Part shown: one piece after another, positions 8,920 through 15,165 of the stretch
How the letters are laid out: every line of letters starts with the position of its first letter
Position numbering within the stretch: the stretch's first letter is position 1
Origin: Halorussus halophilus
GTDB taxonomy: Archaea > Halobacteriota > Halobacteria > Halobacteriales > Haladaptataceae
Assembly (NCBI RefSeq): GCF_008831545.1
Contig: NZ_CP044523.1
Coordinates: 2,542,001 to 2,606,000 of the forward strand
Direction of reading: 5' to 3'
Length of the DNA stretch: 64,000 bases
Program-made: the position numbers and the translations under genes
Notes under the pieces: model-generated
The model's database searches: none
What the model was told of the DNA's origin: nothing
The model's input: only the letters and a program-made list of their open reading frames with translations

Positions 8920-9705
8920 TCACTGGGTCGTGGTCGGCTGAGTGGTCGTCATCGTGTCCGAGACAACGAACGGTTGAACGAGTTCGAGGACCTCATCGGG
9001 TTCCAACGGTTCGTCGAACGCACTGGGGAACGGCGACCGCCGCGTCAGCGTGTTGAGGTACGACGAGTGTCTTGCCTCGACCGTAGCGATCGACGCCGCC
9101 GCGGTGATCAACTCACCGTTCCCGCTCAGCGTGTCTATCGCACCGTCGTAAGCGGAGACCCCGGTCGTTTCGAGCGTCTGGGCTGTCCGGATGAAGCGCC
9201 TGGGGTTTCGGAGGTCGAACTGGAACTCGACGTCGTCTGCGGTCACCGGGTCGCCGCCGAGACTTTCGACCGTCTGGGTAAGCGTCTGGACGTGCGCCTG
9301 CTCGTGGTCCCGAATCTCTTCGAACCGCTGGTACATGGACGACTGTATCTCTTCCCCGAACCGTTGTCCGATTCGAGAGTTGACGAGGTCGTCTTCGCTG
9401 AACTCTTGTAGCCCGCGCCTGTAGAACGTCGCTTCGAGTCGTTCGAGGGTGAGCGCGTAGTTCAGCGTATCGACGAACCGTTGGTCGTCTCGACCCTCCT
9501 CGGTCGTCACAGTTCCCTGCGTCGTCTCCTGTGCTCCCGTAGCGGCTCCCGAACCCGCCGAAAGTCCGAATCCTATCGCCGACGTGGCGAACCCTTTCTT
9601 CAAGAACTCTCGACGGGAATCAGCCGAACCGCTTCCGTTCTCCGCTGATGAATTGCCCCCTTCGTCCCCACCGTCGATTTCGAAGTCATTTATTTCGTTT
9701 CTCAT
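8920..9705 (-). CDS. Tat-exported ferritin-like domain protein
   Basis: A 262-aa protein with a twin-arginine signal (SRREFLKKGF) preceded by an acidic N-terminus. The mature part is a helical bundle of the ferritin-like superfamily, with Glu/His positions in ALTLERLEATFYRRG, EIRDHEQAHVQ and IATVEARHSSYL. Such secreted proteins are related to desiccation-linked PCC13-62-like families; iron binding is not proven. The C-terminus ends in a Thr/Gln tail. The ATG at 9705 gives the Tat signal its normal spacing, and the longer in-frame reading to 9834 is unlikely. Confidence 0.82.
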   Translation of the reverse strand: MRNEINDFEIDGGDEGGNSSAENGSGSADSRREFLKKGFATSAIGFGLSAGSGAATGAQETTQGTVTTEEGRDDQRFVDTLNYALTLERLEATFYRRGLQEFSEDDLVNSRIGQRFGEEIQSSMYQRFEEIRDHEQAHVQTLTQTVESLGGDPVTADDVEFQFDLRNPRRFIRTAQTLETTGVSAYDGAIDTLSGNGELITAAASIATVEARHSSYLNTLTRRSPFPSAFDEPLEPDEVLELVQPFVVSDTMTTTQPTTTQ

Positions 9706-10367
9706 AATTTGGCCGAATACGGTCTCTAAGCGCCAATTACGTCGTTTTCCGACGTCGGTCGTCTCGCTGCGCCCGGTGAGAACACCCGCGGGAGGATAAA
9801 GAACGAGTACCGTTTCCGTTTTCTCGAATCTCATTCTCCCGAGTAAGGGACGTTACCCGGACGCCCTTGTTTCAGCTGCCGTGCGAATTGAAGTATTACG
9901 ACCGCCGGTCGGCGGGCGAGATACGAACACGCCAACCACCATCTCGCTCTCCCGTCAAAAATCAGGCACCGCCGAATTTCAGGCGAAACTGCAACGGGGA
10001 AATCTCGGGGACCTATCCAACAGCACAGACATCTGTTCGTCTCCCGAGTAATGAATAGTCGCTTGCAGGACGAGGACGTCAGAAGCGGCCGACAGGGATG
10101 CCGAGGAGTTCCTCGCTGAACGGTTGTGTCGGATTGGAAGGGAGCAATACAGGGTATCTATTTCTCGATGTTGTCCTGTCGGTGTCGTCTTAGTACTGCT
10201 CCGCGACCCTTGTCACCAAATCCCACCAACAGTAGACGTATATATTCAAGGAATTCCAAGCTAGGTACGATTACCGGGAGAGCATTAGTCGAAATACCGC
10301 CGTATTCTTCGAGCTTCTTGAACAGTCTACCGGATTCATACGTCGATAACTCGATAATGGTACGACC
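9706..10367. other. Gene-free interval between two divergent exported-protein genes
   Basis: These 660 bases contain no reading frame with protein-like composition on either strand. The base composition is more AT-rich than the flanking genes. A TATA-like stretch (CGTATATATTC) lies around 10228-10238, about 130 bp before the next gene, and may mark a promoter with a leader. The hairpin modules found elsewhere in the window are absent here. Confidence 0.5.
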
Positions 10368-11495
10368 ATGAGACGCGCCAATAGGAGCCGAGTTTCAACA
10401 GTGACCCGACGCACCTTCCTCGGCGGCGTGGCTACCGCCGGAGTGGCTGGGCTCGCAGGAGGTCGGCTACAAGAGGACGACGACGCGATTCCGTCGCGGT
10501 TCGCTAGTGCAGTCGAGATAGACACCGAGAACGACACCGTCACGCTCCCGCTCTACCGCGGCCAGAGCCCGATGGGAAACGTGTTCTACGTTTTGTTCGA
10601 AACGACCAGTCTCCGTCGCGCTACGAGGCGAGGAATCAACTGGTCGCCGAAGCTGTCCAACGCGCTCGGCACCGACGCCGTACAGCAGGTCGACGGACGA
10701 CAACCCCGCGCCCGAAATCGGGACCAGGCGGGTATCGCGTTCCGCGCGACCCCGAACTTCACTCCAGAGCGCAACGTCGTCCCTGGCCCGGAAGGGTTCC
10801 CGCTCTCCACCGACACCCAACCGGGAGCGACGAGCGAGACGTACACCCCGTTGATTACGCGGGACCAAGACGTGGTGTACAACGCACCGCACGTCGCGAA
10901 CGAGACGGGCGAACACGACAACGTCGTCTCTATCGACCGTAACGCGATGGAGGTGACGATGGCGTTGACCGCCGGGTTCTACGAGGGTCAACGAACCCTC
11001 TATGTCAGTACGGAGGCGTCCGCGCCCGACGTCGCGGCGCTCGAAGGCGCGACGTACGCCCCCGCCCTGAACGCGGCACCAGCGGCGGCGGACCGAAGCA
11101 CGGCCACGTCCGCCCGCGAATCGATCATCCCGGTGGTGAACGGCCCGATGGGTGCAGACAATCCGAACCGGCAGGGGTTGCGGTCGGCAGTGGCGGGCGA
11201 GGGCAGTCCGCTCAACGTCGTTGCGGAGGAACAGGAGTGCGGTGACCCCAGCTTCCGGTCCGACTGCGAAGCACTGTTCTACAGCCCACTCTGGGACGTC
11301 CATCCGGTCGTGTGGACGCAGCAGGCGATAGACGAGGGCCAACGGCGACGGTTGACTAGTCATCAGGATGCCATCACCGCCTTCCGACGAGGGCAACTGG
11401 AGAGCGGTGCACCGGACGGTCCGGTCAACGACCTCCTGGGCGGCATGCGGGCGGCGGGGGCGCTCGTCAACTGTCCCCTGATACTCGTCGGGTGA
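10368..11495 (+). CDS. Tat-exported protein of unknown function
   Basis: A 375-aa secreted protein with a twin-arginine signal (TRRTFLGGVATAGVAGLAGG, residues 13-32); there is no Cys for a lipid anchor. The mature domain begins with SAVEIDTENDTVTLPLYRG and holds repeated beta-rich stretches, including VFYVLFETT, DVVYNAPHVANE and PLWDVHPVVW. I do not recognise the family. It is divergent from the ferritin-like exported protein across a 660-bp gap. The C-terminus contains a CGDPSFRSDC segment that could form a disulfide outside the cell. Confidence 0.75.
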   Translation: MRRANRSRVSTVTRRTFLGGVATAGVAGLAGGRLQEDDDAIPSRFASAVEIDTENDTVTLPLYRGQSPMGNVFYVLFETTSLRRATRRGINWSPKLSNALGTDAVQQVDGRQPRARNRDQAGIAFRATPNFTPERNVVPGPEGFPLSTDTQPGATSETYTPLITRDQDVVYNAPHVANETGEHDNVVSIDRNAMEVTMALTAGFYEGQRTLYVSTEASAPDVAALEGATYAPALNAAPAAADRSTATSARESIIPVVNGPMGADNPNRQGLRSAVAGEGSPLNVVAEEQECGDPSFRSDCEALFYSPLWDVHPVVWTQQAIDEGQRRRLTSHQDAITAFRRGQLESGAPDGPVNDLLGGMRAAGALVNCPLILVG

Positions 11496-13758: not shown

Positions 13759-13824
13759 GGCCGTGGGTTCACGGTGAGATTAGAAATATCCTGCCAAATT
13801 CTAGAGTTGGAAAATTTCACGCCC

Positions 13825-14091
13825 TTAATTGAGAGATTGTTGCTTTGCAGAGCCACTCCTCGTGATAACGTAGATACCCCCTAATAGGAATACAATTTGT
13901 AAGATTGCAAGGACTGTTTCTAAGCTTCCACTCTCGGTGAATCTCATTGCGACTAAACAAAGCATAGAGAGGAAAATTAAGAGAACAAATCGCTTTGTAT
14001 TCTGTGCTTTCTCACTCATCCATGTGTAGATCACTACTACACCGAACAGCGTTATGCCAACGAATTGTATCAGTGATTGTATGCTACTCAT
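13825..14091 (-). CDS. Small three-span membrane protein beside the halocin-like gene
   Basis: An 88-aa protein with three hydrophobic spans (about residues 6-24, 33-50 and 58-77) and a Lys/Gln-rich C-terminus. Its DNA is clearly AT-richer than the window average, as is the neighbouring halocin-like gene, and the two are on the same strand 80 bp apart. That points to joint acquisition. Small membrane proteins beside bacteriocin genes often act in immunity or export, but nothing in this sequence shows that directly. Confidence 0.6.
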   Translation of the reverse strand: MSSIQSLIQFVGITLFGVVVIYTWMSEKAQNTKRFVLLIFLSMLCLVAMRFTESGSLETVLAILQIVFLLGGIYVITRSGSAKQQSLN

Positions 14092-14171
14092 AGAGTAACG
14101 TATACCATATTACGACTGACACTACTACTGCTTTATGCTCTCAGAGGGTTCGAGAAAGAAAGCGAGTGGTT

Positions 14172-15029
14172 CTATGTTACATTCGGGATGTTCTTACACT
14201 CGTAACACCCAGTGACCGTTTCGCAACCACTACCGATGTTACAGTCAACCCCGTAAGCAGTCATCACTGCAAACATGCAAGCAGCACATGTAGTGTCATC
14301 AAAGAACGAAGCCGCGCATTTACCACACAAGACAATTGCTCCACCGTACGCACCAGCAATAGCTGACCAGCACTGGTAGTTTGGAGAATCACACACCGTA
14401 GCTTCGGCTTGACAAAGATCACCACATCCACCCCCACCATCGCCCGGAAGATGGGCTTGTGTGCCGACGTTGCCACCTTCGAGTGTGTGGTAGTCTGACT
14501 CTTTTGTTTTTACTTTACCATCGTCAACGACGTACCGCTCCGAGTATTCCGTCGATGGGTTCGAAGAAGTCGAAAGCGAGTTGCTTGACCGCTCGAACCG
14601 GAAACCAAGTACCCTGTACGTTCCAAAGCTTTCGTCTAACCAGAGGATGTGAGCACTCTCCGACTTTGAATTCCTGCCAGATTTCTTGAAAGGAACAACA
14701 ACGGTTCGATGACCCTCTTCCTCCGTGGAGGTAGTTCGTTTACAATCCGCCTTTTGTGCTTGAGGAACAAACCCATCAGCGGAAAGGGCTGCGGAAATTT
14801 TCTGGTACACTTCGTCAGACTGCGCAGCCTCAATCGCGTTCTTACGCGCTTTTCCAGACATGGTCTGTACTTTAAGGCCTCGTTCGTCTGCGTCCTTTTT
14901 CAGTGCGGCGACAGTTTGACTGAACCACGTTGTAGTAGCAGTCGCTGCTCCCACTGCTTTGAGGCATTTTCGTCGATTGACTCCCTTTTTCTCACCTCTA
15001 CCGCCACTTGTTATCTTTTCTAACACCAT
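14172..15029 (-). CDS. Halocin C8-like precursor (candidate microhalocin with self-immunity domain)
   Basis: A 285-aa precursor with three parts. First is a Tat-type signal (NRRKCLKAVGAA, residues 18-29). Then comes a ~150-residue middle domain (IEAAQSDEVYQKISAAL, RTVVVPFKK, HILWLDESFGTYRVLGF). Last is an 84-residue C-terminal domain with 12 Cys after a Gly-rich joint (GDGGGGCGDLC). Halocin C8 is made as a 283-aa Tat-exported precursor whose N-terminal part gives immunity and whose Cys-rich 76-aa C-terminus is the antimicrobial peptide; this protein copies that size and layout. The gene is AT-rich with a strong TATA box. Processing and activity are not shown. Confidence 0.75.
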   Translation of the reverse strand: MVLEKITSGGRGEKKGVNRRKCLKAVGAATATTTWFSQTVAALKKDADERGLKVQTMSGKARKNAIEAAQSDEVYQKISAALSADGFVPQAQKADCKRTTSTEEEGHRTVVVPFKKSGRNSKSESAHILWLDESFGTYRVLGFRFERSSNSLSTSSNPSTEYSERYVVDDGKVKTKESDYHTLEGGNVGTQAHLPGDGGGGCGDLCQAEATVCDSPNYQCWSAIAGAYGGAIVLCGKCAASFFDDTTCAACMFAVMTAYGVDCNIGSGCETVTGCYECKNIPNVT

Positions 15030-15051
15030 AGAAATTTTACTTTTGGTGTAG

Positions 15052-15063
15052 GTATTTATATTT
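15052..15063 (-). promoter_or_regulatory. TATA-box region of the halocin-like gene
   Basis: On the minus strand this reads AAATATAAATACC, a strong archaeal TATA element, centred about 29 bp before the ATG at 15029. That spacing puts the transcription start at or next to the start codon, so the message is probably leaderless. No ribosome binding site is seen. Confidence 0.6.
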
Positions 15064-15165
15064 TTGTGTTATTACATCTCGTAGAACATAGTTATCGCTA
15101 CGGAGTTGTTGGCACTGAAGCGCAATCAAATTTCGAGGAAAGCGAGAAAACGCGAAGACGACCGG

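Follow-up and report, generated by a model that had tools for sequence, protein, structure and literature searches.

A Predicted Microhalocin Precursor of Halorussus halophilus With a HalI-Like N-Domain, a New Type of Cys-Rich C-Domain and a Candidate Membrane Immunity Partner

A small AT-rich island in the genome of Halorussus halophilus appears to encode a microhalocin precursor that is exported by Tat and activated by a protease, that joins a HalI-like N-domain to a Cys-rich peptide of a new type, and that is probably accompanied by a separate membrane immunity protein; we give this reading a probability of about two in three. Activity, cleavage and immunity are what we infer for the predicted cassette. 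As judged from sequence profiles, the N-domain is homologous to that of the halocin C8 precursor (the HalI part), whereas the C-domains of the two are unrelated. Sequences are known for only a few peptide antibiotics of archaea. In the following, the window means the whole stretch of DNA that was analyzed (64,000 nucleotides), to which the coordinates of these features refer:

13780..15100, no strand: AT-rich island between geranylgeranyl-reductase-like and KorB-like genes (composition, congener comparison)
13825..14091, minus strand: gene (GC 0.40) for a candidate immunity protein of 88 aa, a membrane protein in which three TM segments are predicted
14172..15029, minus strand: precursor gene, 285 aa, with Tat signal, HalI-like N-domain, Gly joint and Cys-rich C-domain
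14175..14426, minus strand: C-domain of 84 residues with 12 Cys, the predicted mature peptide (~8.8 kDa)
14427..14444, minus strand: Gly-rich joint GDGGGG, residues 196-201; presumed cleavage region
14439..14897, minus strand: N-domain, residues 45-197, by homology to the halocin C8-type N-domain (HalI part)
14778..14855, minus strand: helix-loop-helix, residues 59-84, from the structure model and the alignment with halocin C8 precursors
14907..15029, minus strand: Tat-type signal peptide, residues 1 to ~41, from sequence; putative cleavage site
15053..15065, minus strand: TATA-like AAAAATATAAATA, from sequence; putative promoter

The Precursor and Its Relatives

The open reading frame starts with ATG, and its N-terminus contains NRRKCLKAVG, in which RR occupies residues 19-20 and is followed by a hydrophobic stretch up to VAA. 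This RR motif is kept in the full-length relatives of the alignment, and export by Tat is predicted from the motif alone. An earlier note on this DNA had described a 285-aa Tat-exported precursor with a Gly-rich joint and an 84-residue tail with 12 Cys; the frame, an RR motif, the joint and the tail are indeed present at 14172-15029; the tail (residues 202-285) would yield a Cys-rich peptide of less than 10 kDa behind the joint. The position of the TATA-like stretch suits a leaderless transcript of the precursor gene, for which it may act as promoter.

A search across 391 genomes of the class returned 21 genomes with a match at E <=0.01, a count that includes the genome of H. halophilus itself and some weak or spurious matches. 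The layout recurs in 10 relatives with 23-31% identity, which were aligned with the window protein (two rows are partial): an RR signal leads into the N-domain, which is often linked through a Gly-rich joint (seen in several relatives) to a Cys-rich end. Since this layout is common to 10 other sequences, the precursor frame is not due to chance. Among the relatives are proteins from plasmids of Actinarchaeum halophilum and Halorubrum trapanicum, where both genes carry the annotation "hypothetical protein", and from Natronococcus jeotgali. Searches of viral contigs and phage records found no relatives. On contig_103 of N. jeotgali, a family precursor has an internal stop codon and a truncated C-domain and stands without a membrane partner; it looks like a decayed copy.

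Kinship With Halocin C8

The earlier note had likened the layout to that of halocin C8, and this likeness extends to sequence homology in one half of the protein but not in the other: the N-domain is homologous even without the Tat signal, but the peptide falls outside the TIGR04449 family. When the N-domains without Tat signal were compared by hhalign with a halocin C8-type set, the score was 58 (E 2e-9), and with the N-domains of all TIGR04449 proteins it was 71.5 (E 6e-12), as against maxima of 13.8 and 12.7, respectively, in 100 column shuffles. The shuffle test was clean with gap-trimmed alignments; with untrimmed ones a few scores were spuriously high, for which gap columns are the probable cause. 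In an hmmsearch with the N-domains that included 1132 decoy ORFs and shuffles, the N-domains of TIGR04449 proteins were the top non-family matches (best E 5e-9). Both methods hence detect the HalI-type N-domain of the halocin C8 precursor architecture. A window-family profile that was built without any TIGR04449 member also matches the halocin C8-encoding gene (E 4e-10, model positions 4-197, Tat part included). A direct hmmsearch of the family model against the halocin C8 N-domain is weak (E 1.2), so that the kinship depends on profiles and intermediates. The detected similarity covers the first ~85 residues of the N-domain, including the helix-loop-helix, which is also the most confident part of the structure model (pLDDT about 70-80).

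C8-likeness at the peptide level had been set as a test beforehand, and here the expectation failed, as TIGR04449 finds no match in the precursor, in its C-domain, in the whole 4.45-Mb genome or in the 11 aligned family members. In hhalign comparisons with halocin C8-type C-domains, the scores of the C-domains lie within the range of the shuffles. TIGR04449 proteins occur in 47 of the 391 genomes, and one of them ends in a 76-aa sequence that we take to be halocin C8. Because the kinship of the N-domains reaches beyond superficial layout, the new microhalocin type proposed earlier holds as the best-supported reading of the precursor, although its peptide does not belong to the halocin C8 family.

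The Cys-Rich C-Domain

The C-domain is present in 18 of the 391 genomes, in 12 genera. Its core consists of six invariant Cys residues, spaced C-x14-C-x2-C-x9-C-x2-C-x11-C in the window protein, and thus contains two invariant CxxC pairs, whereas the outer Cys are variable, both in number and in spacing. The C-domains of the window and of the Actinarchaeum relative share 39% identity and have 12 Cys each, most of which are aligned. The predicted peptide is acidic, with hydrophobic segments between the CxxC pairs. Pfam gives zero matches for the precursor, and for the 11 aligned family members neither Pfam nor NCBIfam returns an enzyme, a metal domain or any other informative match. No significant PDB match to the protein was obtained by sequence or fold, the fold model being too poor for this purpose; in the C-domain, pLDDT is mostly <50 and the model is unreliable, though some helices are predicted. 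By sequence criteria, the C-domains form a separate family, called "hypothetical" wherever it is annotated. Makarova et al. reportedly surveyed archaeal antimicrobial proteins in 2019, and the C-domain family may already figure in that survey.

A Small Membrane Partner Beside the Precursor

The earlier note had stated that the usual transport and regulatory genes are not seen alongside the precursor. None indeed lie alongside it, but the 88-aa ORF with three TM segments at 13825-14091, on the same strand and 81 bp downstream of the precursor, had been overlooked. Most likely, the function of this protein is to protect the producer membrane from its own peptide. In order to be counted as a partner, an ORF had to comprise 45-150 aa with at least two TM segments (called by simple hydropathy) and to lie no more than 400 bp from the precursor. 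By these rules a small membrane ORF accompanies the family precursors at 16 of 21 loci, or at 15 of 19 distinct ones once duplicates are removed, as compared with 25 of 266 ordinary genes (9%). A dedicated small membrane protein beside the precursor, as in bacteriocin/immunity gene pairs, is therefore typical of the family. The partners of relatives lie upstream or downstream of the precursor and on either strand.

When the size limit was drawn a little more tightly, small polytopic membrane ORFs were also counted next to 12 of 24 scorable TIGR04449 loci, versus 19 of 224 ordinary genes; as half of these precursors have such an ORF, the new family is not alone in having a partner. At the halocin C8 locus, a small membrane partner was looked for and is absent.

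The partners themselves diverge fast. That of the window resembles the H. trapanicum partner (z 7.9), which in turn resembles the partner of a congener (z 12.5), and the Actinarchaeum partner has zero detectable similarity to that of the window. A profile of three window-type partners, run over the 391 genomes, gave strong matches only at four loci beside precursors; as the profile was built from those same loci, the finding is that no further strong loci exist in this set. The remaining matches are all weak, and most lie in far longer frames. A Mantel test of partner type against C-domain similarity is nominally significant; as it is driven by few pairs, we do not rely on this correlation.

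An Acquired Island at a Variable Site

The AT-rich island recognized earlier is borne out, as 13780-15100 has a GC content of 0.46 against 0.62 for the window, and the lowest other 858-base stretch reaches 0.54. GC3 amounts to 0.47 in the precursor gene and 0.43 in the 88-aa ORF, compared with 0.88 and 0.84 in the flanking genes. The neighbors are 2-oxoacid:ferredoxin oxidoreductase genes and the geranylgeranyl-reductase-like gene. Downstream of the KorB-like gene, the precursor cargo is absent from all 16 congeners examined; in one of them just 270 bp separate the KorB-like from the geranylgeranyl-reductase-like gene, and others carry different cargo there, often with RR signals. Both plasmid relatives lie near transposase or integrase genes. 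A tRNA in the window and direct repeats flanking the island were looked for, and none mark the island ends. Plasmids, transposases, low GC3 and the variable site in congeners indicate that the precursor gene is acquired and mobile, and the intergenic site seems to be a hot spot for exported proteins.

Several observations from the window and from related genomes are recorded here in their own right. In one congener, the same intergenic site is occupied by a 429-aa ORF that is AT-rich, bears an RR signal, has a trypsin-type protease-like GDSGS motif and adjoins a 143-aa membrane protein. The H. trapanicum plasmid pCBA1232-01 carries two adjacent precursor-plus-small-gene units at 107.9-113.8 kb, amid transposase genes and with a regulator gene beside each unit; a third precursor, of TIGR04449 type, lies elsewhere on this plasmid, which hence holds several microhalocin cassettes. 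Within the window, 8920-9834 (minus strand) encodes an RR-signal protein with a Ferritin_2 match (Pfam E 2e-37) in the second most AT-rich part, and 10368-11495 (plus strand) an RR-signal protein with a DUF7482 match.

Alternative Explanations

The same kind of precursor could carry its immunity in the N-domain, as reported for halocin C8, and the membrane protein would then be a docking or export helper or a sensor. The homology between the N-domains does span the helix-loop-helix, an element of HalI that is essential for immunity according to the title of a 2008 paper cited in PMC11509114. That 15 of 19 distinct precursors have a small membrane partner at their side, variously oriented, and that the window type is restricted to precursor loci among 391 genomes, speaks rather for an immunity-gene habit, and an N-domain that is combined with unrelated C-domains is hard to reconcile with immunity that is strictly specific for one peptide; we regard this explanation as unlikely. 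A secreted peptide next to a membrane protein would also fit signaling or cell recognition with the partner as receptor. Such a receptor would be very small and fast-diverging, and the N-domain also occurs in a family of precursors with proven antimicrobial products, which leaves little probability for a peptide that is not a killer.

The C-domain might instead be a metal-binding or redox module of a non-antagonistic exported protein, its two CxxC pairs binding Zn or Fe-S. Tat exports folded, cofactor-bearing proteins, which would suit such a module, but it is the usual haloarchaeal route anyway. The lack of enzyme, metal-domain and PDB matches described above, the inconstant outer Cys, and a distribution that is patchy, mobile and linked to a membrane partner, unlike that of a housekeeping protein, make this explanation improbable, if somewhat less so than signaling. 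Hardly any weight falls on an active N-terminal helical stretch with the Cys-rich part as a mere carrier. The precedent is HmHapP of Haloferax mediterranei, which after halolysin cleavage yields a helical N-terminal 45-aa killer peptide (PMC12893001). HmHapP was considered as a family member and rejected, as its primers imply an MKMST start without a Tat signal; the halocin C8 precursor, which is homologous to that of the window, kills by its Cys-rich C-terminus.

Proposed Mechanism and Implications

The reading that we prefer is that of a two-gene microhalocin cassette. The product of the first gene would leave the cell by Tat, as its motif suggests, and a secreted protease, for which the subtilisin-like enzymes of the genome are plausible candidates, would cleave it near the Gly-rich joint. 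This could release an acidic peptide of ~84 residues with up to six disulfides, which may attack the membranes of related haloarchaea. The N-domain probably holds the peptide harmless until its release, or aids folding, and the 88-aa product of the second gene, whose association with the precursor recurs in relatives, would shield the producer membrane. Given that the N-domain is the reported immunity factor in halocin C8, there may be no need for a further protein with this role. Halolysins of the S8 class activate other haloarchaeal precursors (PMC12893001), and the genome of H. halophilus has fourteen S8-type protease matches. Five subtilisin-type protease genes stand in a row within ~6 kb at C1:1584647-1590929 of this genome.

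We speculate, with somewhat less than even confidence, that HalI-type N-domains serve as a common export-and-restraint module to which Cys-rich killer peptides can be attached interchangeably, every one of them paired with a small membrane immunity protein, and that the halocin C8 branch lost or never had a separate immunity gene. The common N-domain connects halocin C8 with another peptide family, as yet unnamed, the family profile can find members that current models miss, and a candidate immunity gene is indicated beside the precursor. The self-protection of halocin producers, through the N-domain or through a membrane protein, thus becomes amenable to direct tests.

Comparison With Known Systems

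ProC8 comprises 283 aa, is exported by Tat and is matured to HalI and a 76-aa peptide (PMC11509114). The window precursor (285 aa) resembles it in size, Tat signal and a homologous N-domain with helix-loop-helix, and both end in Cys-rich acidic peptides of similar mass (7.4 kDa in halocin C8, 8.8 kDa here). The window C-domain differs by its 12 Cys instead of 10, by an unrelated Cys pattern and sequence, and by escaping TIGR04449; the Gly-rich joint and the small membrane partner further set the window apart from the halocin C8 locus, which is without a partner. Other haloarchaeal TIGR04449 precursors have the architecture of the window precursor, half of them next to a small membrane ORF, with a C-domain of a different family. 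HmHapP (HFX_0892) is likewise a haloarchaeal precursor activated by an extracellular serine protease (PMC12893001), yet it starts without a Tat motif, has another sequence and is active through its N-terminal part. Two-peptide bacteriocins such as lactococcin G have a dedicated immunity protein with putative transmembrane segments (PMC6957408); the likeness of the 88-aa protein, which has an archaeal host, is by analogy only. The plasmids of A. halophilum (WP_330633771 / WP_330633772) and H. trapanicum (WP_143076933 / WP_137711804) encode C-domains with only 33-39% identity to that of the window, and there the hypothetical proteins form a pair of precursor and small membrane partner just as in the window.
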